Under the pieces are notes generated by a model, which saw only the letters and a program-made list of their open reading frames with translations, was not told the DNA's origin and ran no database searches. A stretch of 64,000 nt of DNA. Source: Acidimicrobiales bacterium mtb01 (GTDB lineage: Bacteria; Actinomycetota; Acidimicrobiia; Acidimicrobiales; Ilumatobacteraceae). The DNA lies in assembly GCA_004379135.1 (NCBI GenBank), contig NBNI01000002.1, positions 62,001-126,000 on the forward strand. The letters run 5' to 3'. Shown piece after piece: positions 5,221-64,000 of this stretch; positions within the stretch are counted from its first letter, which is position 1, and each line of letters starts with the position of its first letter. Position numbers and translations under genes: made by a program.

Positions 5221-6704
5221 GCCGACGATCTTGGCATCTCCGAGCGCCACGGAATTCCGTCCGGCCATCGCCCCACGCCTCCGGCATCGACGAGGAGTCC
5301 GGTGTGGGTGCGATCGCTGTGGGTGCTGCGCCAGACGAGCATGTCCTGGGCCATCGCGAGGACTCGGGTCGGGTCGTCGATGGGTGTGCGCCACGTCGGG
5401 TCGGCGGCGATGTCGAAGCACAGCCACGAGCCGTCACCGAACTGCACGTAGGCGGTGTCGGCCGAGCGGCGCACGGTGAGGTGCTGATTCTCGAGGCGGC
5501 GATCCCAGGGCCAGCGGTATTCGCCCCACGCGATGAGCGCGAAGCGCCAGTCGAATTCCCACGATGCGGCCGTGCGCCACCACGGCGGCTCGGTTCCCTC
5601 GATGAACGGGGTGAGCGGCAGACCGTCGCATTGCAGCGGCACGTCGAGGTTCAAGGCTTGCGCGAGCGTGGGCATCACGTCGACGCTCTCGGTGAACGAC
5701 TCGACGACGCGACCGCCCGGGTGGCGCGGATCGCTCCAGATGAGGGGAATGTGGTGGCTCTCCTCGAACCAGCCGACCTTCTGGAGCAGTCCGTGGTCGC
5801 CGAGTTGTTCACCATGATCGGATGTGACGACGATGATCGTGTCGTCCCATCGTCCGCGGGCACGTAGAGCGGCGCACAGCCGACCCACTTCGTGGTCGAC
5901 CGCGGAGATCATGCCGAAGTACTGCGCTCTGACCCTCCGCATCTCGGCCGGATCGGTCGGAACCTTCACGATGTCGAGGTTCATCAAGACGTCGTGGAAG
6001 GGATGGCGATCGTCGGAGGGTGGGATCGGATCGCCGCAATCGTCGGGCGAATACATCGTGGCGAAACGTCCGGGAGCCGAATAGGGAGGATGCGGACGCA
6101 GGTAGCTCGCGTGCACGAACCACGGATCGTCGCCGTGGCCGTCGATCCAGTCGATGATCCGGTCGGTCGTGAACGACGCCATCGAGAGTTCTTCGGGTCG
6201 CTCGTTCTCGCTCCGCAGCATCGCGTCGTATCCGGCCGACACGTCGACACCGCGATCGGCGAGGAAGTCGATCCAGGGTTGGTGCGGAATGGCCAGATCG
6301 ACGATGCAGTCGAACCCGGGCAGTACGCCCTCGTACGACTGGAGACGTGGATCGTCGGGGCCGCTCGTGACGCGGGGGTCGACCGCTTGATCGGTGTAGC
6401 CGAAGAGGACGGGTCGCCGTCCCGCCCGTCGCGCGAGGAGGGCCACGTTGTCGAATCGAGAATCGAGTGGAGTGCCGTTGGCGACCACGCGATGGTTCAT
6501 CTGGTACATCCCGGTGTACAAACCGGCTCGACCAGGGGCACACGGGGTGGACTGCGTGTAGTGCCGCGAGAAGCGGACTCCTTGTGCGGCCAGGTCGTCG
6601 AGGTGCGGCGTGCGCACGAGAGGATGACCGGCGCTCGAGAGCGCGTCACCGCGGAATTGATCGAGTGTGATGAAGAGAACGTTGGGCGTCGACGTCGACG
6701 TCAT
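5217..6704 (-). CDS. Type I sulfatase (formylglycine-dependent)
   Basis: 495 residues of the alkaline-phosphatase superfamily. NVLFITLDQFRGD near the N-terminus supplies the metal-binding aspartates. CAPGRAGLYTG contains the CxPxR signature: Cys55 would be converted to formylglycine and Arg59 helps stabilise it. The HGEQLGDHG segment adds metal and sulfate ligands. Cys-type sulfatases need an FGE or anSME maturase, which is not in this window. No signal peptide is visible. The start has CACAAT 6 nt upstream (leaderless arrangement). It is coupled to the GH3 gene and lies near the GH29 fucosidase, fitting desulfation of a fucose-rich polysaccharide. Confidence 0.92.
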   Translation of the reverse strand: MTSTSTPNVLFITLDQFRGDALSSAGHPLVRTPHLDDLAAQGVRFSRHYTQSTPCAPGRAGLYTGMYQMNHRVVANGTPLDSRFDNVALLARRAGRRPVLFGYTDQAVDPRVTSGPDDPRLQSYEGVLPGFDCIVDLAIPHQPWIDFLADRGVDVSAGYDAMLRSENERPEELSMASFTTDRIIDWIDGHGDDPWFVHASYLRPHPPYSAPGRFATMYSPDDCGDPIPPSDDRHPFHDVLMNLDIVKVPTDPAEMRRVRAQYFGMISAVDHEVGRLCAALRARGRWDDTIIVVTSDHGEQLGDHGLLQKVGWFEESHHIPLIWSDPRHPGGRVVESFTESVDVMPTLAQALNLDVPLQCDGLPLTPFIEGTEPPWWRTAASWEFDWRFALIAWGEYRWPWDRRLENQHLTVRRSADTAYVQFGDGSWLCFDIAADPTWRTPIDDPTRVLAMAQDMLVWRSTHSDRTHTGLLVDAGGVGRWPDGIPWRSEMPRSSA

Positions 6705-6710
6705 GACCCG

Positions 6711-6716
6711 ATTGTG
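6711..6716 (-). promoter_or_regulatory. -10 box of the sulfatase-GH3 operon
   Basis: CACAAT on the minus strand, 6 nt before the ATG at 6704; transcription would begin at or next to the start codon. Confidence 0.45.
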
Positions 6717-6720
6717 CCAC

Positions 6721-7803
6721 TCAATCGGCGCGTGCGTACTCGAATCGATCGGTGTGCTCGATCCGGACGAATTCGCCGGCCAGCCGCAGGTGTTCGAGAT
6801 GGGCGAAGGTCTCGCTGTCGGCCATTCCGCCGAGGGCCCGCGGTGAGAACAGATGGGTGGACATCTCCATCACGGTGGCCGGACGGTCGAGTTCGGCGGC
6901 CGCGTCACGGAGCTTCTGGAGCCGGCCCTCGTGGTGCTCCTTGATGGCGCGGGCTCGCCCGGCCAGATCGGTGAACGGATTGCCGTGGGCGGGCAGCGCG
7001 GTCGTGACCTGCGATCCGAACTCGGCCACCTTGTCGAGGGAGTGGAAGAACTTCTTGAGCGGATCGCGCGCGCCGATCAGGCCGCTGATGTGAGGCGTGA
7101 TGGTGGGCAGCACGTGGTCGCCGCAGAGCATCAGACCGTGTTCGGGATCGAAGAGACACAGGTGATCGTCGGTGTGGCCCGGCGTGTGGAGGGCGATCCA
7201 GTCGCGACGGGCGAATCGGATGTGCTCGCTGTCGTCGAGGCGAACCGTGGGCTTCGGCGTCTTGATGAGCCCGGGAACCCGGCGAGCCACGGCGTATCGC
7301 ATCTTGCGTTGCCACGGAATCTCGTAGCCGGGACCTCCCCATGGTGTGGCGTCCCACGGACGGCGCTGCACCGGAATGTCGGCGGCGTCCTCGACGTCGA
7401 TGTCGGGCGCCTCGGTCGGATCCCAGAACATGCGGAACCGCTTGCTCGTGATGATCTCGCTTCCGGTCTCCTTCTGGAGCCAGTACGCACCGCCGTAGTG
7501 ATCGGGGTGGCTGTGCGTGACGACGATCGAATGCACGCGCTTGAGCGGAACGCCAGCCAGCCCCAGTCGGTGGGTGATTGCCTTGTAATTGGCGGCGGTG
7601 GCGAGACCGGGGTCGACCACGGTGACACCACGGTCGTCCTCCAACACGTACATGTTGACGTGGCCGAGACCGGGCATGTCGATGGGCAATTGCGTGCGAA
7701 GGACCCCGGGAGCGATCTCGTCGATCTGCTCGGTGGCCGGCAGCTGCTCCTGCTTCGGAGGTCGTGGCGTCGACGATTGTTGATGCGAGCGGGCGTCGGT
7801 CAC
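6721..7803 (-). CDS. Metallo-beta-lactamase-fold hydrolase
   Basis: 360 residues with the HxHxDH zinc motif in THSHPDHYGG (His97, His99, Asp101, His102), a further ligand in LHTPGHTDDH, and CGDHVLP. This resembles glyoxalase-II-like thioesterase/hydrolase relatives; the substrate is unknown. A C-terminal helical region (~290-360) is typical of MBL proteins with a winged-helix tail (LACTB2 type). The GTG at 7803 overlaps the oligoribonuclease stop (GTGA), which fixes the start; the frame continues far upstream but would cover the orn gene. LACTB2 itself is an RNase, so an RNA-related role beside orn is possible but unproven. Confidence 0.85.
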   Translation of the reverse strand: MTDARSHQQSSTPRPPKQEQLPATEQIDEIAPGVLRTQLPIDMPGLGHVNMYVLEDDRGVTVVDPGLATAANYKAITHRLGLAGVPLKRVHSIVVTHSHPDHYGGAYWLQKETGSEIITSKRFRMFWDPTEAPDIDVEDAADIPVQRRPWDATPWGGPGYEIPWQRKMRYAVARRVPGLIKTPKPTVRLDDSEHIRFARRDWIALHTPGHTDDHLCLFDPEHGLMLCGDHVLPTITPHISGLIGARDPLKKFFHSLDKVAEFGSQVTTALPAHGNPFTDLAGRARAIKEHHEGRLQKLRDAAAELDRPATVMEMSTHLFSPRALGGMADSETFAHLEHLRLAGEFVRIEHTDRFEYARAD

Positions 7804-8375
7804 GACGACGAGGGTACTGGTGCGCTCTCGCCCGCGACGAATACTCGCTCGCGGTAGAAGCGGAGCTCCTCGATGCTCTGACGCACGTCGTCGAGCGCCC
7901 GGTGCGTTCCGGCCTTGAAGGGCCGAACGTTGTCGGTGCCGGGGTACCAACGCTTCACCAATTCCTTGATGGAGCTGACGTCGACCGAGCGATAGTGCAA
8001 GTAGTTCTCGATGTCGGGGAGGTACTTGGCCAGGAAGCGGCGGTCGGTTCCGATGGAGTTGCCGCACAGGGGCACGGTGCGCGGCTCGGGGACGTGCGAC
8101 TTGATGAATTCGAGCGTGAGGCGGCCGGCTTCCTCGAGCGACAGCGCGGACGCCTTCATGAGTTCGAGCAGACCCGATTTCGTGTGCATGTCGACCACGA
8201 ATGGATCCATCGCGGCCAGGACATCGGGGGGAGCCGGTATCACCAGGTCGGGACCCTCGGCAACGACGGCGAGCTGGTCGTCGGTGACGATGGTGGCGAT
8301 CTCGACGATGACCTCCTTCTCGGGGTCGAGCCCCGTCATCTCGAGATCCATCCACACCAGCACGTCGGAGACCAT
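7800..8375 (-). CDS. orn: Oligoribonuclease
   Basis: 191 residues of the DEDDh exonuclease family. The catalytic residues can be placed: Asp10 and Glu12 in WMDLEMTG, Asp111 in NSIGTDRRF, and His158 plus Asp163 in THRALDD. Orn degrades 2-5-nt RNA oligomers, and pGpG in c-di-GMP turnover, to mononucleotides in the cytoplasm. Length matches the family (~180-200). The ATG at 8375 is close to the divergent dut start (8433), leaving a 57-bp shared promoter region. It is co-transcribed with the downstream metallo-hydrolase (4-base overlap). Confidence 0.95.
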   Translation of the reverse strand: MVSDVLVWMDLEMTGLDPEKEVIVEIATIVTDDQLAVVAEGPDLVIPAPPDVLAAMDPFVVDMHTKSGLLELMKASALSLEEAGRLTLEFIKSHVPEPRTVPLCGNSIGTDRRFLAKYLPDIENYLHYRSVDVSSIKELVKRWYPGTDNVRPFKAGTHRALDDVRQSIEELRFYRERVFVAGESAPVPSSS

Positions 8376-8420
8376 AGGTCATCCATGTGGCGCGGATCGA
8401 AGACCTCGGGCGACACCGCC

Positions 8421-8426
8421 TATCGT
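8421..8426 (+). promoter_or_regulatory. -10 box of dut
   Basis: TATCGT, 6 nt before the GTG at 8433, implying a leaderless transcript. Confidence 0.45.
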
Positions 8427-8432
8427 CGAACC

Positions 8433-8888
8433 GTGTCCAATGCGTCGTGGCCCCATGTGACCGTTCCGGTCGTCCGCCTCGACGCCGAACTTCCGTTGCC
8501 GGGTTACGCGCATCCGGGCGATGCCGGACTCGATCTGTTGGCCCGTGAGGATGCGCTCGTCCGAGCGGGTGGCGGTCGCGTTCTCGTTCCGACCGGAATC
8601 GCGCTCGCGTTGCCGCGCGGCACCGCGGCCTTCGTTCTGCCCCGCAGCGGACTCGCGTTGAAGCACGGAGTCACGGTGGTGAACAGCCCCGGTCTGATCG
8701 ATTGCGCGTATCGGGGCGAGATCAAGGTGGTTCTGCTCAACACCGACCCGAGCAGCGACTATCAGGTGCGCCGCGGCGACCGCATCGCTCAACTCGTGGT
8801 GCAGTCGGTTCTCGAAGTGCGTTGGAACGAGGTCGAGTCGCTCGACGGCGACGACCGCGGCGGCGGTTTCGGCCACTCGGGCCGCTAG
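8433..8888 (+). CDS. dut: dUTP diphosphatase
   Basis: 151 residues, the usual size of trimeric dUTPase. All five conserved motifs are present: PGDAGLDL (motif 1), PRSGLA (2), GLIDCAYRGEIKV (3), RGDRIAQLVV (4) and the Gly-rich tail RGGGFGHSG (5). The enzyme converts dUTP to dUMP and PPi, keeping uracil out of DNA and supplying thymidylate synthase. The GTG at 8433 is chosen because a TATCGT box sits 6 nt upstream. The stop overlaps the convergent acyltransferase stop by 4 bases. Other pyrimidine-salvage genes (cdd, deoC) lie 1 kb downstream. Confidence 0.96.
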   Translation: MSNASWPHVTVPVVRLDAELPLPGYAHPGDAGLDLLAREDALVRAGGGRVLVPTGIALALPRGTAAFVLPRSGLALKHGVTVVNSPGLIDCAYRGEIKVVLLNTDPSSDYQVRRGDRIAQLVVQSVLEVRWNEVESLDGDDRGGGFGHSGR

Positions 8889-9640
8889 GCGGCAGCCGAC
8901 ATCTCGTCGAGTTCGCGGCCAATGAGTGCCCGCACATCGTCGCGCAACTTCGGCATGTCGTCGAGAGTCATGCCCTCGGTGGAGATCGGCTCGAGTACGC
9001 GAACCACCGCGTGCGAGTCGCCCAGACGCCAGTCGTGCTTGCGAAGAGCGGTCCGGGTTCCGTGAACGACGAGCGGCAGGATCGGCACACCGGCCTCGAT
9101 CGCCAAGCGGAACGCTCCGTCCTTGAACGCACCGAGTGATCCATCGGCCGAACGCGTGCCTTCGGGGAAGATCATCACCGAGACCTTCTTGCGGAGACGG
9201 TCGTGGCAGGCGGCGATGGCAGCGGCTCCACTCGCGCGATCACCGCGCACGAGTCTGATGTCGCCGGCCATGCGCATCATCCAGCCGACGAGCGGGAACT
9301 TGAAGAACGTCTCCTTCGACATCCATTTCATTTCGATCGGCAGATGGCTGATGAGGAGGATGTCGACGAAACTCTCGTGGTTGGCGACCACCACGTAGGG
9401 GCGTCGCTTGTCGGCGGGCAGGTGACCACTGGTTCGGAACTTCCACATCGGAGTGAGGACTTGGTGGACGACGGTCAGTTTGCGGAACAAGTAACCCGCC
9501 GCGTAGTGGCCCTTGTCGAAGGGCAGAGTGACCAGCCAGGTGACGAAGACCAGCGGCGTCCAGACGATGATGACGATCACCAGGATCACCCAACTCCAGA
9601 TGCTGAGGATGCTTCTTCTGATCACGAGCCATCCTCGCAC
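8885..9640 (-). CDS. plsC: 1-acyl-glycerol-3-phosphate acyltransferase (PlsC family)
   Basis: 251 residues. Two hydrophobic N-terminal stretches (~11-40) anchor the protein in the membrane. NHESFVD (His88, Asp93) is the NHx4D acyltransferase box, and VMIFPEGTRSADG is the substrate-binding motif III. PlsC enzymes acylate lysophosphatidic acid at sn-2 to make phosphatidic acid; paralogues exist in most actinobacteria, so the exact acceptor is unconfirmed. The longest start (GTG 9640) is used; a GTG five codons later is possible. The start is 46 bp from the divergent cdd start. Confidence 0.88.
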   Translation of the reverse strand: MRGWLVIRRSILSIWSWVILVIVIIVWTPLVFVTWLVTLPFDKGHYAAGYLFRKLTVVHQVLTPMWKFRTSGHLPADKRRPYVVVANHESFVDILLISHLPIEMKWMSKETFFKFPLVGWMMRMAGDIRLVRGDRASGAAAIAACHDRLRKKVSVMIFPEGTRSADGSLGAFKDGAFRLAIEAGVPILPLVVHGTRTALRKHDWRLGDSHAVVRVLEPISTEGMTLDDMPKLRDDVRALIGRELDEMSAAA

Positions 9641-9673
9641 ACGAGGTCGACACCACCCGGTCGCCCGGAGTCG

Positions 9674-9679
9674 TAAGTT
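9674..9679 (+). promoter_or_regulatory. -10 box of cdd-deoC
   Basis: TAAGTT, 7 nt before the GTG at 9687. A GGGAGG string lies between, so either leaderless or very short-leader initiation is possible. Confidence 0.45.
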
Positions 9680-9686
9680 GGGAGGC

Positions 9687-10124
9687 GTGAGCGAGAACTG
9701 GCCGTATCCGTCCGAACATCGTGTCGCCGAGCTCTTCGCGGCCGCGAAACTCGTCCAGGAGCAGGCCTACGCGCCGTACTCCCACTTCCTCGTCGGTGCC
9801 GCGATTCTTTCGCCGTCGGGTCGCATTCATGTCGGCTGCAACGTCGAGAACGCGGCGTATCCGGTGGGAACGTGCGCCGAAGCCGGCGCCATCGCCGCGA
9901 TGTGCGCGGCCGGCGATCGTGAGATCGCGGTTCTCGTGACCATCTGCGACAGCGTGGACGTTGGCACGTGCTGCGGTGGCTGTCGACAGCGCGTCCGCGA
10001 GTTCGCCGGCCCCACGACGCCCATCTACGCGTGCGGACCCGATGGTGTGCGGGCGGTGTTCACGATGGATTCGCTCCTTCCCACGTCGTTCGGCCCCGAG
10101 AACCTCAGCGGCTTCGTGTCGTGA
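9687..10124 (+). CDS. cdd: Cytidine deaminase
   Basis: 145 residues, the size of the homotetrameric CDA type. The zinc site is visible: the CAEAGAI segment (ligand Cys and catalytic Glu, after NVENAAYPVGT) and CCGGCRQR, which supplies two more cysteine ligands. It deaminates cytidine and deoxycytidine to uridine and deoxyuridine in salvage. The GTG at 9687 follows a GGGAGG and a TAAGTT box. Its stop overlaps the deoC start (GTGA), so the two catabolic enzymes of deoxynucleosides are translationally coupled. Confidence 0.95.
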   Translation: MSENWPYPSEHRVAELFAAAKLVQEQAYAPYSHFLVGAAILSPSGRIHVGCNVENAAYPVGTCAEAGAIAAMCAAGDREIAVLVTICDSVDVGTCCGGCRQRVREFAGPTTPIYACGPDGVRAVFTMDSLLPTSFGPENLSGFVS

Positions 10125-10858
10125 CCACCGATCGCGAGATCGCGCAGCGGGCGCTGGCCTGTCTCGATCTGACCAATCTCGACGATCGGTGCACGCGCGA
10201 CGAGGTGGTTCAATTGTGCGAGCGCGCATCGACGCCGTTCGGACACGTCGCCGCGGTGTGCGTGTGGCCTCGTTTCGTCTCCACCGCCGTCGAGGCTCTG
10301 GCGGGTCGAACGATCGGAATCGCCACCGTCGTCAACTTCCCCTCAGGTGACGAGCCGCTCGGCGACGTGATCGACATGACGCGGGCGTCGTTGGCCGATG
10401 GGGCGACCGAGATCGATCTGGTCATTCCCTACTCGTCGTTCGTTCGCGGCGACATCGCCCGGGCCAGCGAATACGTGTCGACCGTTCGCGGCGTGGTGCC
10501 CGACTCGCGCCATCTCAAGGTGATCCTCGAAACGGGCGAGATCGGCGATGTCGCTCTCATCGAAGCGGCGGCGCGACTCGCCATCGCGGCGGGCGCCGAT
10601 TTCGTGAAGACGTCCACGGGCAAGACGAAGGTGTCGGCGACCCCCGAAGCCGTTCGAGCTCTGCTCGGCGTGATTCGAGCCAGTGGAGCGCCGGTCGGCA
10701 TCAAGCCATCGGGTGGCATTCGCACGATCGACGACGCGCGGATGTACCTCGAACTCGCCGACGAGATCATGGGACCGGCCTGGGCCACGCGGCACACCTT
10801 TCGCTTCGGCGCCAGTGGACTTCTCGATGCCATCCTCGCGACGCTCGGCGTAACCTGA
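10121..10858 (+). CDS. deoC: Deoxyribose-phosphate aldolase
   Basis: 245 residues, TIM-barrel class I aldolase. FVKTSTGK holds the Schiff-base lysine (Lys163), and the GIKPSGGIRT segment carries the second, proton-relay lysine. It cleaves 2-deoxyribose-5-phosphate to glyceraldehyde-3-phosphate and acetaldehyde, feeding deoxynucleoside sugar into glycolysis. The GTG at 10121 overlaps the cdd stop, which fixes the start. The last bases of the gene carry TAACCT (10851-10856), the apparent -10 of the following aminotransferase. Confidence 0.95.
   Translation: MTTDREIAQRALACLDLTNLDDRCTRDEVVQLCERASTPFGHVAAVCVWPRFVSTAVEALAGRTIGIATVVNFPSGDEPLGDVIDMTRASLADGATEIDLVIPYSSFVRGDIARASEYVSTVRGVVPDSRHLKVILETGEIGDVALIEAAARLAIAAGADFVKTSTGKTKVSATPEAVRALLGVIRASGAPVGIKPSGGIRTIDDARMYLELADEIMGPAWATRHTFRFGASGLLDAILATLGVT
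10851..10856 (+). promoter_or_regulatory. -10 box of the aminotransferase-amidase pair
   Basis: TAACCT inside the end of deoC, 6 nt before the ATG at 10863; it indicates a separate leaderless transcript for the next two genes. Confidence 0.45.
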
Positions 10859-10862
10859 CCCC

Positions 10863-12035
10863 ATGCCTCGTGCGCCGTTCCTGACTTCGAAACTTCAGGG
10901 GTTCGGCTCGACGATCTTCGCGGAGATGACCGCGCTCGCCACGGAAACCGGCTCGATCAATCTTGGTCAGGGATTCCCCGATTACGACGGGCCGAGCGAG
11001 GTGCTCGACGCAGCCGTGGCTGCCATTCGTTCGGGGCAGAACCAATATCCGCCCGGACCCGGTGTGCCCGTTCTGCGTCGAGCCATCAGCGAACACCAGA
11101 AGCGCTTCTGGGGTCTCGAGTACGACCCCGACCGCGAGATCCTGGTGACAGCCGGAGCAACCGAGGCCCTGGCCGGATGTCTGCTCGGTCTGCTCGAGAC
11201 CGGTGACGAGGTCGCGCTCCTCGAACCGATGTACGACAGCTATCAGGCCTGCATCGCGTTGGCCGGGGCGGTCACGCGTCCGGTCACGCTGCGACCGCCG
11301 TTGTACTCGTTCGATCCGGACGAGTTGCGGGCCGCGATCACGCCGAAGACGCGCGTGATCCTGCTCAACTCACCGCACAATCCGACCGGCGCGGTTCTGG
11401 ACGACGAGCAGTTGAGGACGATCGCCGACATCGCGATCGCCAACGATCTGATCGTCGTGTCCGACGAGGTGTACGAGCACCTCACCTACGACGGTCTCGT
11501 CCATCGCTCGATCGCCGCGCTCCCCGGGATGAAGGAGCGCACGCTCGTGATCTCGAGCGGCGGCAAGACGTTCAACACCACCGGATGGAAGGTGGGTTGG
11601 GTGTGCGGCCCGGCGCCTCTCGTCGCGGCGGCCCGGGCGGCCAAGCAGTTCCTCACGTATGTGTCGTCCGGACCCTTCCAGCCGGCCATTGCCGCCGGGC
11701 TACGACTTCCCGACGAGTACTTCTCCGAGTTGGCCCGCGATCTGCAGACCAAGCGCGATCGCCTGATGACGGGTCTGGCCGAGGCCGGTTTCGACGTCTT
11801 CAAGCCGGCCGGCACCTACTTCGTCACGGTCGACATCCGACCCATCGAACCGTCGGGTGACGGCTACGCGTTCTGTCGGTCGCTGCCATCACGATGCGGC
11901 GTGGTCGGGATTCCGAACGTCGTGTTCTACGACCGGGCCCATGAGAACGAGGGTCGGCATCTCGTGCGTTTCGCCTTCTGCAAGCGGTTCGAACTCATCG
12001 ACGAGGCAGTCACCCGGTTGAAGGGTCTGTCGTGA
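10863..12035 (+). CDS. Class I PLP aminotransferase (kynurenine/methionine aminotransferase type)
   Basis: 390 residues of fold-type I. NLGQGFPD near residue 33 is typical of the KAT/GTK/YbdL subgroup; SPHNPTG, SDEVYEHL and SSGGKTFNTTGWKVGW (PLP lysine Lys235) follow. Members transaminate methionine, aromatic amino acids or glutamine, and some act as N-succinyldiaminopimelate aminotransferase in actinobacteria. The next gene overlaps it (GTGA) and encodes an omega-amidase-like nitrilase. That pairing is known from glutamine transaminase-omega-amidase pathways and favours glutamine as amino donor (inference). Confidence 0.88.
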   Translation: MPRAPFLTSKLQGFGSTIFAEMTALATETGSINLGQGFPDYDGPSEVLDAAVAAIRSGQNQYPPGPGVPVLRRAISEHQKRFWGLEYDPDREILVTAGATEALAGCLLGLLETGDEVALLEPMYDSYQACIALAGAVTRPVTLRPPLYSFDPDELRAAITPKTRVILLNSPHNPTGAVLDDEQLRTIADIAIANDLIVVSDEVYEHLTYDGLVHRSIAALPGMKERTLVISSGGKTFNTTGWKVGWVCGPAPLVAAARAAKQFLTYVSSGPFQPAIAAGLRLPDEYFSELARDLQTKRDRLMTGLAEAGFDVFKPAGTYFVTVDIRPIEPSGDGYAFCRSLPSRCGVVGIPNVVFYDRAHENEGRHLVRFAFCKRFELIDEAVTRLKGLS

Positions 12036-33265: not shown

Positions 33266-33355
33266 GGAAGGATGCGAGAGCGGCCGAATCGGCAGCACTG
33301 GAAATGCTGTGACCTCGCAAGGGGTCCGTGGGTTCAAATCCCACTCCTTCCGCCA
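33266..33355 (+). tRNA. tRNA-Ser (anticodon GGA)
   Basis: Acceptor arms GGAAGGA (33266-33272) and TCCTTCC (33345-33351) pair; the anticodon stem CAGCA/TGCTG encloses CTGGAAA with anticodon GGA. A long variable arm and GTGGG-TTCAAAT-CCCAC T arm follow. CCA is encoded (33353-33355), and its final A is also the first base of the tadA start codon. Confidence 0.96.
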
Positions 33356-33812: not shown

Positions 33813-33900
33813 GGAAGGGTGCCCGAGCGGCCGAAGGGACACGCCTCGAAAGCGTGCGACGTGCAAGCGTCCGTGGGTTCAAATCCCACCCCTTCCGCCA
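33813..33900 (+). tRNA. tRNA-Ser (anticodon CGA)
   Basis: Acceptor arms GGAAGGG and CCCTTCC pair; anticodon stem CACGC/GCGTG encloses CTCGAAA with anticodon CGA. A long variable arm, the T arm GTGGG-TTCAAAT-CCCAC and an encoded CCA complete it. Confidence 0.96.
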
Positions 33901-58110: not shown

Positions 58111-58114
58111 GCGG

Positions 58115-58187
58115 TGGTCGAGACCGGCGTCGATCCGGTGACCCCACGCTTTTCAGGCGTGTGCTCTGCCAACTGAGCTACTCGACC
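58115..58187 (-). tRNA. tRNA-Phe (anticodon GAA)
   Basis: Acceptor arms GGTCGAG and CTCGACC pair; the anticodon stem CACGC/GCGTG encloses CTGAAAA with anticodon GAA. CCA is not encoded (CCG follows the discriminator A). The acyltransferase ATG lies 4 bases downstream. Confidence 0.95.
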
Positions 58188-58213
58188 GCGTGCGTTCGGC
58201 GAACCGAACGCAC

Positions 58214-58290
58214 TGGCGGTCCCGACGGGACTCGAACCCGCGACCTCCGGCTTGACAGGCCGGCGTGAACTCCAACTTCACCACGAGACC
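58214..58290 (-). tRNA. tRNA-Asp (anticodon GTC)
   Basis: Acceptor arms GGTCTCG and CGGGACC pair with one wobble; anticodon stem CCGGC/GCCGG encloses CTGTCAA with anticodon GTC. CCA is encoded. Confidence 0.96.
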
Positions 58291-58296
58291 AGGAAT

Positions 58297-58372
58297 TGGC
58301 ACCCCCAACGGGATTCGAACCCGTGCCGCCACCTTGAAAGGGTGGTGTCCTAGGCCACTAGACGATGGGGGC
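58297..58372 (-). tRNA. tRNA-Glu (anticodon TTC)
   Basis: Acceptor arms GCCCCCA and TGGGGGT pair (one wobble); anticodon stem CCACC/GGTGG encloses CTTTCAA with anticodon TTC. CCA is encoded. First gene of the Glu-Asp-Phe cluster; the -10 box TAGGCT lies at 58402-58407 on the minus strand. Confidence 0.96.
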
Positions 58373-59327: not shown

Positions 59328-60272
59328 ATGGCAACGCGCCCCCTCGTCCCGTCCCGGTTGGCCCCGGGTGGCGTGTCGGCCCACGGTCCTCGTCGCGCTC
59401 CGCGTTCGGTTGTCGGCGGCTATGTCGCCCTCACCAAGCCGCGCATCATCGAACTGCTCCTCATCACGACCGTGCCCACGATGGTTCTGGCCGAGCAGGG
59501 TTGGCCCGGTTGGGGCCTGCTCTTCATCACGCTGCTGGGCGGGAGCCTGGCCGCCGGGGGTGCCAACGCCATCAATATGGTCGTCGACCGCGACATCGAC
59601 CGGCTGATGGAGCGGACCCGGAATCGCCCCCTGGTCACGGGCCTCATCGCCCCGCGTTCGGCCCTGATCTTCGCCTTGGCCCTGGAGGCCCTGGCCTTCG
59701 CCGTGCTCTGGGCTGGGGCCAACCTGCTGTCGGCCTTTCTTGCGTTGTCGGCGACCCTCTTCTACGTCTTCATCTACACCTTGTGGCTGAAGCGCACGAG
59801 CCGTCAGAACATCGTGATCGGCGGGGCGGCCGGGGCCGTCCCGGTCCTGGTGGGCTGGGCGGCGGTCCGAAATTCTCTCGATTGGGAGCCATTCGTCCTG
59901 TTCACGGCCATTTTCCTGTGGACTCCGCCCCACTTCTGGGCCTTGGCCATCCGCCACGCCGACGACTACCGGGCCGCCAACGTTCCCATGCTCCCGACCG
60001 TGAGCACCATGGCCACCACGGTGCGTCACATGTTCACATACACGGTCGTGCTCACCGCCAGCACCCTCGTTCTGGCCCCGGTGGCCGATCTCGGACCGTT
60101 GTACTGGGTCTCGGCCCTGGTTCTCGGCCTCGGCTTCATGCTCGGCACGATCGATCTCGGCCGTCATCCGACGCCCGCCCGGTCGATGCGGCTGTTCGCC
60201 TTCTCGATCTCGTATGTCACGGTTCTCTTCGTCGCGATGGCCGCCGATGTGCTCATCCGCCACGGGGTGTGA
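59328..60272 (+). CDS. ctaB: Protoheme IX farnesyltransferase (heme O synthase)
   Basis: 314 residues of the UbiA family with about nine helices. NAINMVVDRDIDRLMERTRNRPLVTG is the first prenyl-diphosphate motif (NxxxDxxxD) and RHADDYRAANVPMLP the second. It attaches farnesyl to heme b, the step to heme O and A, so the organism makes heme for an aa3-type oxidase. ATG 59328 is supported by the TACCAT box. A 158-bp gap with a hairpin and a -10 separates it from the oxidase-like genes. Confidence 0.95.
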   Translation: MATRPLVPSRLAPGGVSAHGPRRAPRSVVGGYVALTKPRIIELLLITTVPTMVLAEQGWPGWGLLFITLLGGSLAAGGANAINMVVDRDIDRLMERTRNRPLVTGLIAPRSALIFALALEALAFAVLWAGANLLSAFLALSATLFYVFIYTLWLKRTSRQNIVIGGAAGAVPVLVGWAAVRNSLDWEPFVLFTAIFLWTPPHFWALAIRHADDYRAANVPMLPTVSTMATTVRHMFTYTVVLTASTLVLAPVADLGPLYWVSALVLGLGFMLGTIDLGRHPTPARSMRLFAFSISYVTVLFVAMAADVLIRHGV

Positions 60273-60430: not shown

Positions 60431-62047
60431 ATGACATCGACCGAGACCCACCACGCGGCTGGAGCAGCGTCGTCGACTGACGCGCCTGCCATCGCCACGT
60501 GGCTCACCACCGCCGACCACAAGCAGGTCGGTCGCCTCTTCATCGGCACCGGACTCGTGGGCCTGCTCGGCGGACTCGTCCTTGCCGTGCTCGTCGCGTT
60601 CGAACGCATCGATGCCGAGGGCTTCCAACTCCTCGACTCGGGTTCGGCAACGCAGGTGTTGTCGGCCGCGCGTCTTCTCCTCACGTTCGGTGCCGTTGCA
60701 CCCCTCGTGATGGGTCTGGCCGTGGCCATCGTTCCGCTGCAACTGGGTTCGCGTTCCATCGCCTTCCCGCGGGTCGCGGCCAGCGGTTTCTGGATGTGGC
60801 TCACCGGCCTTGTTCTGTCGGTGGCCGCCATCATCGGAAACGGCGGTCCGTCGGGCGGCGAATCCGAGATGGTCGATCTGTATCTCGCCGCCTCGGTGGT
60901 CATGGTTCTCGGTCTGGCCCTGGCCGCACTGTCGATTGCGGTCACCGGCCTCACGTCGCGCGCCCCCGGCATGGGTCTGCTGCGCGCGCCCTTCTTCTCG
61001 TGGTCGTCGTTCGTCGGATCGATCGCCCTGCTCATGAGCCTGCCGGTGTTCATCGGAACCTCGGTGTACCTCTACGTCGACCACCGCTACGCGCGCGCGG
61101 CGTTCGGCGGCAACTTCGGCGTGAACAACTGGGTCGGCTGGGCCATCTCGCAGCCGTTCACCTACGTGCTCGCCATCCCGGTTCTGGGTTTCGTGCTCGA
61201 CGCCATTCCGGTACTCGGTCGCACTCGCTTGGCTCAGCGCCCGGCGGCCAACGTCGCGGTCGGTCTCGTGTCGGTCGCGATCCTCGCGTCGCTCACGCAC
61301 CGCGCGGTCACGCTTCCGTGGGAAGGCGACGGCTTCTTCTCGGGCCTCGGCACCAAGATCGCCGACCTTCTCCCGTTCGGACTCGTCAACGTGATTCCGC
61401 TGTTGGGCCTGCTCGGTGTGCTCGGCCTCACGATGCTCACTCTCAAGAGTGCCAAGCCCATGCTCGCGGCGCCACTGCCCTTCGCGGTGCTCGGCTTGCT
61501 GATGATCCTCCTCGGAGCCGCGTCGCATCTTCTGTACACGGTCGAAGACGCCGCTCTCGGCGGCACCATCTTCGAAGCGGGTTCGTACGTCGCGGTCACG
61601 TTCGGAACCGTTCTTCTCGCGTTCGGCGGTCTCACTTATTGGGGCCCGAAGTTGTGGGGACGGCGCATCCCCGACAAGGCGGCGCTTCCGCTCGCTCTGC
61701 TCGGATTCGTGGCCGCCGCACTCGGCTCGCTCCCGTACATGATCGCCGGTTTCGCCGATCAGCCCGCCGGAGTCGTCGACGGATTCGCCTACAGCGGTCC
61801 GCAAGAACTCTGGAACGTCGTCACCACCGGCGCGTTCGCGCTCATGCTGCTCGTGAGTCTCGCGTTCATCGGCTTGGCCGTGCGCAGTTTCACCGCGGGT
61901 GAAGCCGCCGGTGACGACCCGTGGGATGGCACCACTCTCGAGTGGGCGACGTCGTCGCCGCCGCCCGCCGACAATTTCTCCGACCTGATCGTGGTCGGTT
62001 CGGAGTATCCGCTCGCAGACATCAAGAACTCAGGGAAGGTTGGCTGA
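60431..62047 (+). CDS. Cytochrome oxidase subunit I-like protein lacking heme and CuB ligands
   Basis: 538 residues with about twelve helices. COX1 landmarks are clear: WLTTADHKQVGRLF (~24-37), IVPLQLG and IAFPR (~100-114), GPKLWGRRIPDKAA (~405-418), and the C-terminal signature DPWDGTTLEWATSSPPPADNF (~496-516). The metal ligands are gone. Where COX1 has the low-spin heme His (HG motif), residue 80 is Ala; HPEVY is QPFTY (Gln241); the CuB His pair is His290-Arg291; and HFH near the end is FGT (391-393). Only one of six ligand histidines remains. It cannot be a normal oxidase subunit; a structural or regulatory paralogue is inferred. Confidence 0.85.
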   Translation: MTSTETHHAAGAASSTDAPAIATWLTTADHKQVGRLFIGTGLVGLLGGLVLAVLVAFERIDAEGFQLLDSGSATQVLSAARLLLTFGAVAPLVMGLAVAIVPLQLGSRSIAFPRVAASGFWMWLTGLVLSVAAIIGNGGPSGGESEMVDLYLAASVVMVLGLALAALSIAVTGLTSRAPGMGLLRAPFFSWSSFVGSIALLMSLPVFIGTSVYLYVDHRYARAAFGGNFGVNNWVGWAISQPFTYVLAIPVLGFVLDAIPVLGRTRLAQRPAANVAVGLVSVAILASLTHRAVTLPWEGDGFFSGLGTKIADLLPFGLVNVIPLLGLLGVLGLTMLTLKSAKPMLAAPLPFAVLGLLMILLGAASHLLYTVEDAALGGTIFEAGSYVAVTFGTVLLAFGGLTYWGPKLWGRRIPDKAALPLALLGFVAAALGSLPYMIAGFADQPAGVVDGFAYSGPQELWNVVTTGAFALMLLVSLAFIGLAVRSFTAGEAAGDDPWDGTTLEWATSSPPPADNFSDLIVVGSEYPLADIKNSGKVG

Positions 62048-62646
62048 TGCTCACGCTGCCCCCCGCACCTCAGCCGGCTCCGAAGCGTCAGGTCTTCGTC
62101 GGCACGGCCCTGGTCTCGGCCGCCGCGACCATGCTCGTCGGCGGAATGCTCGCCATCTGGTCGCAGTTCCGCGCCGATGCGCCGTTCCGCGAATCGCCGC
62201 GCCGCGGCCCCATCAAGGACTGGATGCCCAAGGACATCGTGGTTCCCGAAGTGGCCGCCAACATGATGCTCATCGCGTTCTTCGTGGTGTGCGTCATGGC
62301 CCAGTGGGCGGTGTGGTCGGCCAAGCGCAACGACCGCCAGCACGCCGGAATGGCGCTCGGCATGACGTTGCTCATGGGCCTCGCCACGCTCAACGCCCAA
62401 CTCTTCATCTGGTCGCAGATGGGAGTCGACGTTCGCGGCGGTGCGTTCAATTCGATGTTCTACGCGATCACCGGTGTCATGACGTTCCTCGTGATCGCCG
62501 GACTCGTGTACACGGCGGTTGCCACGTTCCGCTACCTCGGTCGCGGCAACTCCGATGTGCCGACACTGTCGGCGCATGCCCTCTATTGGTACTTCCTCAC
62601 GGCGGCGTTCAGTGCCGTGTGGTTCGTGGTGTACGTGCAGAAGTGA
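62047..62646 (+). CDS. Cytochrome oxidase subunit III-like membrane protein
   Basis: 199 residues with five predicted helices (~20-40, 70-90, 103-125, 138-160, 178-196). Helical spacing, NAQLFIWSQMGVDVRGGAFNSMFYAITGVMTFLVIAGLVY and the terminal YWYFLTAAFSAVWFVVYV resemble COX3, but the conserved His of the COX3 GxHxxHV segment is absent (AITGVMTF). Its ATG shares one base with the preceding stop (TGATG), so production is coupled to the subunit-I-like protein. Family assignment is moderate. Confidence 0.7.
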   Translation: MLTLPPAPQPAPKRQVFVGTALVSAAATMLVGGMLAIWSQFRADAPFRESPRRGPIKDWMPKDIVVPEVAANMMLIAFFVVCVMAQWAVWSAKRNDRQHAGMALGMTLLMGLATLNAQLFIWSQMGVDVRGGAFNSMFYAITGVMTFLVIAGLVYTAVATFRYLGRGNSDVPTLSAHALYWYFLTAAFSAVWFVVYVQK

Positions 62647-62655
62647 CGAGGCGAC

Positions 62656-63804
62656 ATGATGATCACCACTAGTTCCAAACTTCTCTACGGACTCGGCGCG
62701 GGTTCGCTCGCGGCCGGCTTCGTCTGGTTCGTCGCCAACGAGGGTCAGCAACTCGGCTCGGTGATGTTCGCGTTCCTCGCCGTCGCCTTCATCTTCCTGG
62801 GCGCCATTGCGTCGTACACCCGCGACGGACACGTTCTCTCCACCGACACGGCGGCGCACGCGTCGTCGGCGGCTTCGCAGAAGTCGGTCGGCCGCAGCCT
62901 GTGGCCCTTCGGCACGGCCGTGTCGGCGGGTGTCACCGTCGTCGGCCTCATCAGCTCGCCCGGCATCTTCAAGGTCGGTGTTGCGCTCCTCATCGCCATG
63001 TTGGGCGAATGGATGATCAGCAACTGGGCCGAGCGCGCGTCGTCGAGCAATGAGTACAACACCAAGGTTCGCGACTACCTCGTCCACCCGCTCGAGCTGC
63101 CGGTCGCGGGTGCCCTGTTGCTCGCTGTCATCGTGCTGTCGTTCTCGCGCGTCTTCCTGGCGCTCAGCAAGTCGGTCGGTGCCATCGTGTTCGCCGGAAT
63201 GGGTGCTCTGATCCTGTTCTTCGGAGCTCTCATCGCCGTGAAGCGTCAGGCGAATCGCCGCGTCGTCGGTGCAATCCTCGGCGTCCTCCTCCTGGCTCTG
63301 GCCGGGACCGGTGTGGCCACCGCTCTCGACGGCGAGCGCGAACAGCTCACCGAGGCGGCCGAAGAAGATCACTTCGCCCACCGCGGCTGCACCGAGGAGA
63401 AGGAATACTCCGACAAGAAGGCCTCGCGGGCCGTGTCGATGAAGAGCAGCATCCTCGCCAACGTGATCCTCACCGAGGACGGCCAGCTGTACGCCGAGGC
63501 CACCGGATATCCGGGTCAGCAGTCGGCGATCACCATCCAGCGCTCGAACCCGTCCACCATCTTGTTCGTCAACGAGAGCAGCGAGGCTCGCCGGATGGTT
63601 CTGAGCTACGGCAAGGTCGTCGAAGATCTGGGTGACGGCGTCGAGCGGGAAAGCGCACTCGAAGCCTGCACCTCCAAAGTCGAGAAGGGCGGCCAGCAAG
63701 CCGTCACCGTCGTGGTTCCCAAGCCGTCCTCGGCCAGCGACGAACCCTTCACCATCACCGTCCCCGGAGTCGAGGGCGCCAAGATCGACGTCTTCGTCCC
63801 GTGA
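62656..63804 (+). CDS. Membrane protein with cupredoxin-like tail (oxidase-locus hypothetical)
   Basis: 382 residues, not a recognised single family. Two N-terminal helices (~7-50, WFVANEGQQLGSVMFAFLAV) resemble the actinobacterial subunit IV (CtaF). Further helices lie at ~85-115, 145-170, 172-192 and 200-220. A soluble domain follows (~240-382): ILANVILTEDGQLYAEAT, STILFVNESSEARRMVLSYG and EPFTITVPGVEG, which suggests a cupredoxin fold. Copper ligands are absent: Arg stands where the first His would be, there is one Cys (EACTSKV) and no following His or Met site. It lies between the COX3-like gene and ctaC and is probably part of the same complex. Confidence 0.6.
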   Translation: MMITTSSKLLYGLGAGSLAAGFVWFVANEGQQLGSVMFAFLAVAFIFLGAIASYTRDGHVLSTDTAAHASSAASQKSVGRSLWPFGTAVSAGVTVVGLISSPGIFKVGVALLIAMLGEWMISNWAERASSSNEYNTKVRDYLVHPLELPVAGALLLAVIVLSFSRVFLALSKSVGAIVFAGMGALILFFGALIAVKRQANRRVVGAILGVLLLALAGTGVATALDGEREQLTEAAEEDHFAHRGCTEEKEYSDKKASRAVSMKSSILANVILTEDGQLYAEATGYPGQQSAITIQRSNPSTILFVNESSEARRMVLSYGKVVEDLGDGVERESALEACTSKVEKGGQQAVTVVVPKPSSASDEPFTITVPGVEGAKIDVFVP

Positions 63805-64000
63805 GTGAGAACACCATGTCAACCTCGTCGCAACCATCATCCGGAGATTCGATGAAGAACCCCCGTCGTCGTTTTCTGTCCCTTGCTGGCGCCGCGGCCG
63901 GCCTGGTCGCCGTGGCCGGCTGCGCGAAGGACGCACCGCAGGACACCTGGCAGCCGGCCGGCCCCAACGCTGAAATGATCGACAACCTCCAGCGGCCGGT
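63801..64000 (+). CDS. ctaC: Cytochrome c oxidase subunit II, N-terminal part (cut by window edge)
   Basis: About 66 residues are inside the window. After a short polar N-terminus comes MKNPRRRFLSLAGAAAGLVAVAGCAKD, a signal with a twin-arginine-like RRRFL and a lipobox ending in Cys; the mature part starts APQDTWQPAGPNAEMIDNLQRPV, typical of actinobacterial CtaC before its first helix. GTG 63801 overlaps the preceding stop (GTGA); in-frame ATGs at 63816 and 63852 are alternatives. The CuA domain lies beyond the window, so its integrity cannot be checked. Confidence 0.8.
   Translation, partial: MSENTMSTSSQPSSGDSMKNPRRRFLSLAGAAAGLVAVAGCAKDAPQDTWQPAGPNAEMIDNLQRP

Follow-up and report, generated by a model that had tools for sequence, protein, structure and literature searches.

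The protein encoded at 60431..62047 on the plus strand of the stretch analysed here (hereafter the window; 64,000 nucleotides from Acidimicrobiales bacterium mtb01, genome G000) is a COX1 paralogue with a 12-TM COX1 fold and a single one of the six ligand histidines. It is followed by two companion paralogues and by the genes of a canonical caa3 oxidase. We designate the three paralogues D', E' and F'. We tentatively interpret D'-E'-F' as a pseudo-oxidase that would be retained as a partner without catalytic activity, associated with the caa3 oxidase which the operon also encodes.

Results

D', a COX1 paralogue lacking five of six ligand histidines

The D' reading frame starts with ATG and codes for 538 amino acids without an internal stop, i.e. 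the frame is undamaged as originally predicted. The Pfam profile COX1 (PF00115) matched residues 33-464 with an E-value of 4.5e-31 and 108.6 bits (cut-off 34.8). The motifs DHK, AFPR and LEW..SPPP..NF, on which the prediction of a retained COX1 frame had been based, were all located. D' remained below the cut-offs of both NCBIfam CtaD equivalogs (TIGR02891, 176.9 vs 670.75; NF050116, 165.1 vs 880). The canonical CtaD of the same genome passed TIGR02891 with 683.3 and was also below the cut-off of NF050116 with 609.1.

The alignment of D' with the canonical CtaD of the same genome gave A80 for the first low-spin heme His, Q241, H290 and R291 for the three CuB His, S385 for the heme a3 His and V387 for the second low-spin His. 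Thus, one ligand His out of six is left, and this H290 is itself not conserved (Q in 16 of 20 rows of the genus). This agrees with the original prediction, made from the letters alone, that only His290 persists, that the low-spin His was replaced by Ala and that HPEVY became QPFTY and HH became HR. The proposed change of HFH to FGT was off by a register of about six residues; HFH corresponds to S385/V387 whereas FGT is located at 391-393. The COX1 alignment which had been suggested as a check yielded the same count of histidines. Recovery of all six His by realignment was ruled out, as three alignments gave identical letters for the window protein. Accordingly, D' does not display the residues of a functional A-type heme-copper oxygen reductase, six His plus the D-channel Asp and the K-channel Lys.

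An AlphaFold2 model of D', computed with 18 aligned paralogues, had a pLDDT of 78.8 and a pTM of 0.86 and reproduced the COX1 helix pattern. The best structural match was 6adq_F (Z 40.0, rmsd 2.8, 492 residues), the CtaD of M. smegmatis in the CIII2CIV2 complex, so the predicted fold is that of a 12-TM COX1. As judged by sequence, D' is placed within the COX1 fold family and outside the functional heme-copper reductases.

The paralogues are part of a caa3 oxidase operon

Reading past the window end gave the gene order ctaB-[D'-E'-F']-ctaC-ctaD-ctaE-COX4-ctaG. The first operon gene, ctaB, codes for a heme O synthase of the UbiA family (59328..60272, +; Pfam UbiA PF01040, E 2.6e-66), and it was found upstream of D' in most loci which reach far enough. 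Genes for tRNA-Phe, -Asp and -Glu are located upstream of ctaB on the minus strand (58113-58372). Two tRNA-Ser genes were seen elsewhere in the window (33266-33355 and 33813-33900).

E' (62047..62646, +; 199 amino acids) is joined to D' by the sequence TGATG, in which the D' stop codon (TGA, 62045-62047) overlaps the E' start codon (ATG, 62047-62049). Since the E' start lies inside the D' stop codon, the originally asserted coupling to the next gene is plausible. F' (62656..63804, +) codes for a membrane protein of 382 amino acids. The ctaC gene starts within the window (63801..64000, +) and continues to G000:C4:127063 (ORF L003:6802-8064; COX2 and Cytochrom_C domains). Judged by eye, the N-terminus of its product has twin-Arg and lipobox-like features.

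The second COX1 gene of G000 (2.56 Mb on seven contigs) was detected at C4:127224-128582 with 512.7 bits, the window end being C4:126000. It is the canonical ctaD (L003:8078-10093, 671 amino acids), possesses all ligands and starts 1.1 kb beyond the window in the same operon. A canonical ctaD next to ctaC just beyond base 64000 had been anticipated. It is followed by ctaE, a COX4_pro gene and ctaG. Thus, the original view of a maintained paralogue beside a true oxidase stood; it had missed that the paralogue belongs to a three-gene block and that some relatives have kept ligands.

E' is related to CtaE, and F' weakly resembles CtaF

Compared by hhalign, E' and the true CtaE family are homologous with a probability of 99.1 (E 9.5e-19). 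NCBIfam NF050119 recognized E' with an E-value of 2.1e-11 and 44.4 bits, without reaching the equivalog cut-off of 190. A Pfam scan of a slightly shorter E' frame had no match.

The N-terminal part of F' has a weak likeness to actinobacterial CtaF. PF12270 (Cyt_c_ox_IV), applied at E-values up to 1, matched nine of 15 members of the F' family (best E 0.0006), and the F' of locus L080 scored just under the cut-off (E 2.7e-5, 24.7 vs 26.9 bits). The F' of the window had no match at E 1. An AlphaFold2 model of F' comprised helices and a C-terminal beta domain; overall confidence was limited (pLDDT 67, pTM 0.38), with values of 66-93 in C-terminal ten-residue blocks. All 50 listed structure matches aligned within residues 257-382 (Z 10.4 to 8.8), and judged by their titles almost all of them are cupredoxins or cupredoxin-domain copper enzymes. 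A cupredoxin fold thus occupies approximately residues 263-382. The type-1 copper motif C..H..M (full ligand set H...C..H..M) is absent from the window F' while the cupredoxin fold is retained. The motif was present in 12 of 103 copies with a usable F' (L034-L038, L209, L210, L214, L217, L218, L250 and L255), and in L034, L037 and L038 Pfam Cupredoxin_1 scored above its cut-off. In a number of other copies the cupredoxin domain of F' is missing altogether. D'-E'-F' is thus a shadow set corresponding to subunits I, III and, probably, IV; it lacks a subunit II, and its gene order mirrors that of ctaD-ctaE-ctaF.

Heme and copper ligands were lost to different extents

Ligand residues were compared in 107 distinct D' copies, leaving out copies of less than 400 amino acids or 200 bits and five near-identical ones. 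The first low-spin His was kept in 29 copies, the second in 18 and the heme a3 His in 10. The three CuB positions had a His in one, four and two copies. Two or more CuB His were present in none of the 107 and, correspondingly, none had all six ligand His; the same ligand loss, for which a search of Acidimicrobiia genomes had been proposed, is therefore widespread. The low-spin pair was complete in 18 copies and absent in 89; eight of the 18 also had the a3 His. The K-channel Lys was absent throughout and the D-channel Asp was present once. By comparison, 64 of 67 canonical CtaD proteins read HHEYHHKHHRR at eleven compared positions, and the other three differed at one non-ligand position.

Eleven of the 107 copies combine the low-spin pair with the type-1 copper motif on F', and seven of these also have the a3 His. 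The pair without the motif occurred in seven copies, the motif without the pair in one (L214, in which ctaD is split over two frames and residue calls are doubtful), neither in 84, and in four F' was unusable; the independent contrasts are too few for a test of this link. Even L034-L038 have changes at D132 and K362 and in the heme-propionate arginine pair. In the genus of the window both heme sites and the copper motif are lost and the folds are kept.

In three trees the D' copies formed one clade (SH-aLRT 100). The branches are long, and the depth of this clade compared to the canonical oxidases may be exaggerated. The CuB ligands changed once, both in the first, smaller tree and in a tree of 68 of the first 82 copies. 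The low-spin pair changed once in the former, three times in the latter and six times in a tree of 65 carriers. The single loss of the pair suggested by the first tree was thus overturned by the larger trees. The a3 His changed four, seven and six times in the same three trees, and the type-1 copper motif three times in each of the two larger ones.

D' accompanies one type of ctaD throughout the order

A PF00115 search in 41 relatives showed that the pair of a ctaD and a weaker COX1 recurs. Among 108 genomes of the order, 64 had the ctaD type of the window by our reading of profile matches (four in fragments). D' was present in 62 of these, in each case read from the locus sequence, and in the remaining two (G126 and G222) a contig ends exactly where D' is expected. 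In five of the 62, D' and ctaD are on separate contigs (G036, G048, G059, G227 and G236). Three more genomes have D' without a whole partner. In G028 and G213 this is explained by contig ends. In G188, D', E' and a shortened F' (L211/L230, G188:C84) are accompanied by neither ctaC nor ctaD in the remaining 17 kb of the contig, and an oxidase of the window's ctaD type was not found in this genome. G188, the sole case unexplained by a contig end, is either a true linkage exception or a binning gap. For the 41 genomes counted as lacking the paralogue the statement holds among the matches listed, and a low-scoring copy could escape.

Counted by locus, D' accompanied the window's ctaD type in 63 of 67 cases, the other four being cut by contig ends; at least one genome is counted twice here (L064 and L115). 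At loci with another or an incomplete ctaD, D' was present in five of 92, and in all five ctaD belonged to the window's type and was truncated or frame-split. In this set of loci, all nine genes were found together in 48. In L209 and L210, F' and ctaC are separated by approximately 5 kb of additional DNA. By eye, the ORFs of the L209 insert (about 4.7 kb) resemble genes for a metal (Zn/Mn-type) ABC transporter, with one for a Fur-like regulator in opposite orientation.

A scan of named genome contigs yielded at least 80 loci, at least 17 of them with the paralogue. Their labels were Acidimicrobiia, Acidimicrobiales, Acidimicrobiaceae, Ilumatobacter, or MAGs of Actinomycetota/Actinomycetes. In the class-wide set, genomes from other orders were judged by score except for a few loci which were read. 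Among 197 genomes of the phylum, the best six places outside the class were canonical oxidases, with the lower of the matches listed judged by score only. The spread over the order, the open frames and the conserved gene order rule out a single-strain artefact.

Selection acts on the fold and on the cytoplasmic face

In 40 congeneric pairs, which share species and are not independent (19 genus loci; ctaD dS 0.02 to 1.2), the median dN/dS was 0.18 for D' (maximum 0.26), 0.21 for F' and 0.08 for ctaD; for E' it was 0.16 in 39 pairs. Thus D' evolves faster than CtaD. The low ratio and the open frames across the order bear out the prediction of a maintained protein and not a decaying gene. A decaying pseudogene or an assembly artefact, for which nothing speaks besides ligand loss and faster evolution, is refuted for practical purposes by long open frames in 107 distinct copies, by the dN/dS and by the conserved gene order.

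Conservation of D' was evaluated in 30 loci with both proteins, the membrane sides of residues being those we presume from COX1 topology. It was highest in the cytoplasmic (N-side) loops (0.628) and lowest in the outer (P-side) loops (0.459). Within the transmembrane segments the inner halves exceeded the outer ones (0.561 vs 0.512, permutation p 0.003). In the canonical CtaD partners this was reversed (outer half 0.867 vs inner half 0.790), the hemes and CuB being located in the outer half. This indicates that in D' selection operates on the fold and on one face rather than on what was once the active site. The conservation of cytoplasmic loops could reflect merely signals for folding or insertion.

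SURF1 is missing mostly where ligands remain

SURF1 is a heme-insertion factor. Its gene (PF02104) was detected in 55 of the 108 genomes of the order, i.e. in 54 of 65 D' carriers and in G126, and in none of the 41 others. Where F' had the copper motif, 8 of 11 carriers were devoid of SURF1, compared to 3 of 53 where the motif was absent (Fisher 5e-6). For the low-spin pair the corresponding figures were 8 of 17 carriers having the pair and 3 of 48 lacking it (Fisher 5e-4). On the tree the association amounts to about three to five independent contrasts and is not significant, and common descent may account for it. SURF1 and the copper motif occurred together in three carriers and were both absent in three more. 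The notion that SURF1 simply goes with the paralogue, against an assembly role, was dropped after the count over 65 carriers.

Between F' and ctaC a gene for a TlpA/ResA-like thioredoxin was seen at L034:7591-8232 (Pfam) and at L039:10226-10798 (by eye). Both lineages keep ligands and their genomes are devoid of SURF1.

An operon for a b6f-like bc complex was located at L194 (G000:C4:182000-199000), 7117-11510 on the plus strand. It codes for a dicluster ferredoxin, cytochrome b6, a cytochrome b C-terminal subunit which is considerably extended at its N-terminus, a Rieske protein and a product containing two stretches of the cytochrome c type. This complex is probably the electron supplier in G000. 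A cytochrome c-like ORF lies on the opposite strand at 5907-6749 (by eye). No specific tie of the b6f-like complex to D' was found. A short b6-type cytochrome b appeared promising as a D'-specific partner in the 41 relatives; it was rejected because, class-wide, many genomes of other orders have a short cytochrome b.

Discussion

What is the function of an oxidase-like block in which the redox centres are gone and the folds are kept? D' has kept the fold without being an enzyme, and it is coupled to two sister subunits and to an active oxidase. This led us to the reading of a non-catalytic partner, which we rate a little short of an even chance. Assembly factor, supercomplex scaffold and sensor had been proposed originally; we prefer a structural partner, and the SURF1 pattern adds to the case for an assembly role. 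Stripped of their redox centres, subunits I, III and probably IV would most likely make up the inactive half of a membrane heteromer with the active oxidase. Such a heteromer may serve to organise or stabilise either the oxidase itself or the contact between the oxidase and the b6f-like bc complex. We infer that D'-E'-F' resides with the active oxidase and that its role is structural from the near-strict operon linkage, the purifying selection, the lack of the CuB set everywhere, the shifted conservation and the persistence of folds without ligands. The SURF1 pattern, G188 with D' and without ctaC/ctaD, and the faster evolution of D' compared to CtaD speak against it. The latter suggests that the contacts of D' are not tightly fixed. 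Further, ligands are kept in some lineages, so the ancestral role may have been more than purely structural.

The main rival is a biogenesis factor, which we consider less likely than the structural partner. Here, D'-E'-F' would be a transient template or chaperone which hands heme from CtaB/CtaA, or copper via the cupredoxin domain and CtaG, to CtaD, and SURF1 would take over where the ligands of D' and F' are lost. The position of D' directly behind ctaB, with ctaG closing the operon, is consistent with this, as is the thioredoxin gene in the SURF1-less L034 and L039. That SURF1 is missing mostly where F' copper and D' heme ligands remain also fits a biogenesis factor whose cofactor work passed to SURF1. 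This lowered our confidence in the structural partner from evenly balanced to slightly less. However, in the genus of the window no ligand set is left to carry heme, the window genome has SURF1 as well, and the few phylogenetic contrasts and the six carriers with both or neither of SURF1 and the copper motif weaken the association. The cofactor-free copies of this genus favour a permanent subunit and the SURF1 pattern favours a biogenesis aid.

The eleven copies with a bis-His pair and a type-1 copper motif, seven of them with the a3 His, would be compatible with electron transfer. In the ligand-keeping lineages a low-spin heme and a type-1 copper, joined in some by a second heme, could constitute e.g. 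a quinol- or cupredoxin-linked oxidoreductase feeding CtaC, the derived forms being vestigial or without redox work. We regard this as improbable. It leaves unexplained why cofactor-free copies are maintained under purifying selection in the genus of the window, and L034-L038 themselves deviate at the arginine pair, D132 and K362. More improbable still is a membrane sensor or channel evolved from COX1, e.g. a gas sensor or a proton leak. The ten copies which keep the heme a3 His while lacking CuB could bind gas, but the nine conserved genes include no regulator, the channel residues are gone and most copies have lost the ligands; for copies devoid of every heme ligand a heme sensor is unlikely.

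How does the proposed pseudo-oxidase partner relate to established systems? D' resembles A-type subunit I (CtaD/COX1), including the mycobacterial and corynebacterial aa3 enzymes (PDB 6adq, 6hwh, 7q21), in the 12-TM fold, the operon context and the cytoplasmic motifs DHK, VPLQ.G, AFPR and LEW..SPPP..NF. It differs in the loss of at least two CuB His in every copy and of the low-spin pair in most, and in being a paralogue beside a real CtaD. E' is homologous to CtaE/COX3 below the family cut-off. F' is weakly similar to actinobacterial CtaF (PF12270) in its N-terminal part, again below the cut-off, and adds a membrane part and in some lineages the cupredoxin domain. Nitric oxide reductases and NO dismutase also have the heme-copper oxidase fold with a changed binuclear site; they keep their hemes and are catalytic. 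In D', unlike in these, the CuB set is gone and most copies are without the low-spin pair. There is also an analogy with pseudoenzyme subunits which support an active paralogue; as in this general class, the fold is kept, catalytic residues are lost and an active copy is encoded in the same operon. We know of no such supporting subunit for heme-copper oxidases.

SURF1 and Caa3_CtaG serve the assembly of subunit I. D'-E'-F' are different, as a Pfam scan of D', E' and F' returned no match to SURF1 or CtaG, ctaG has its own place in the operon and most carriers possess SURF1. A full-text literature search, with most subscription papers outside its scope, retrieved no ligand-less COX1 paralogue of this sort. 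Passages of PMC9145763 touch on the service of SURF1/Caa3_CtaG in subunit I assembly, and PMC8239418 reports that long-branch COX1 subclades were taken out before tree building; passages of these two and of PMC10654088 contain nothing on such a protein.

It is possible, if on balance doubtful, that with D'-E'-F' a pseudoenzyme branch of the heme-copper oxidase superfamily has been met for the first time. Subunits I, III and IV would then constitute a shadow oxidase which forms a heteromer with the active caa3 core. All of the surviving relatives are devoid of CuB, and heme a3, heme a and the cupredoxin copper would have disappeared in one lineage after another without loss of the folds. For annotation a warning is due; genes of the D' type score above the Pfam COX1 cut-off and may be mistaken for oxidase genes. 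The SURF1 pattern renders a biogenesis role testable, and the intermediate forms offer a natural ladder for the question which cofactors the COX1 fold needs for stability. Subunit I of heme-copper oxidases is among the most invariant catalytic proteins. Ligand loss with the gene kept across an order would show that the COX1 fold is useful apart from redox chemistry.
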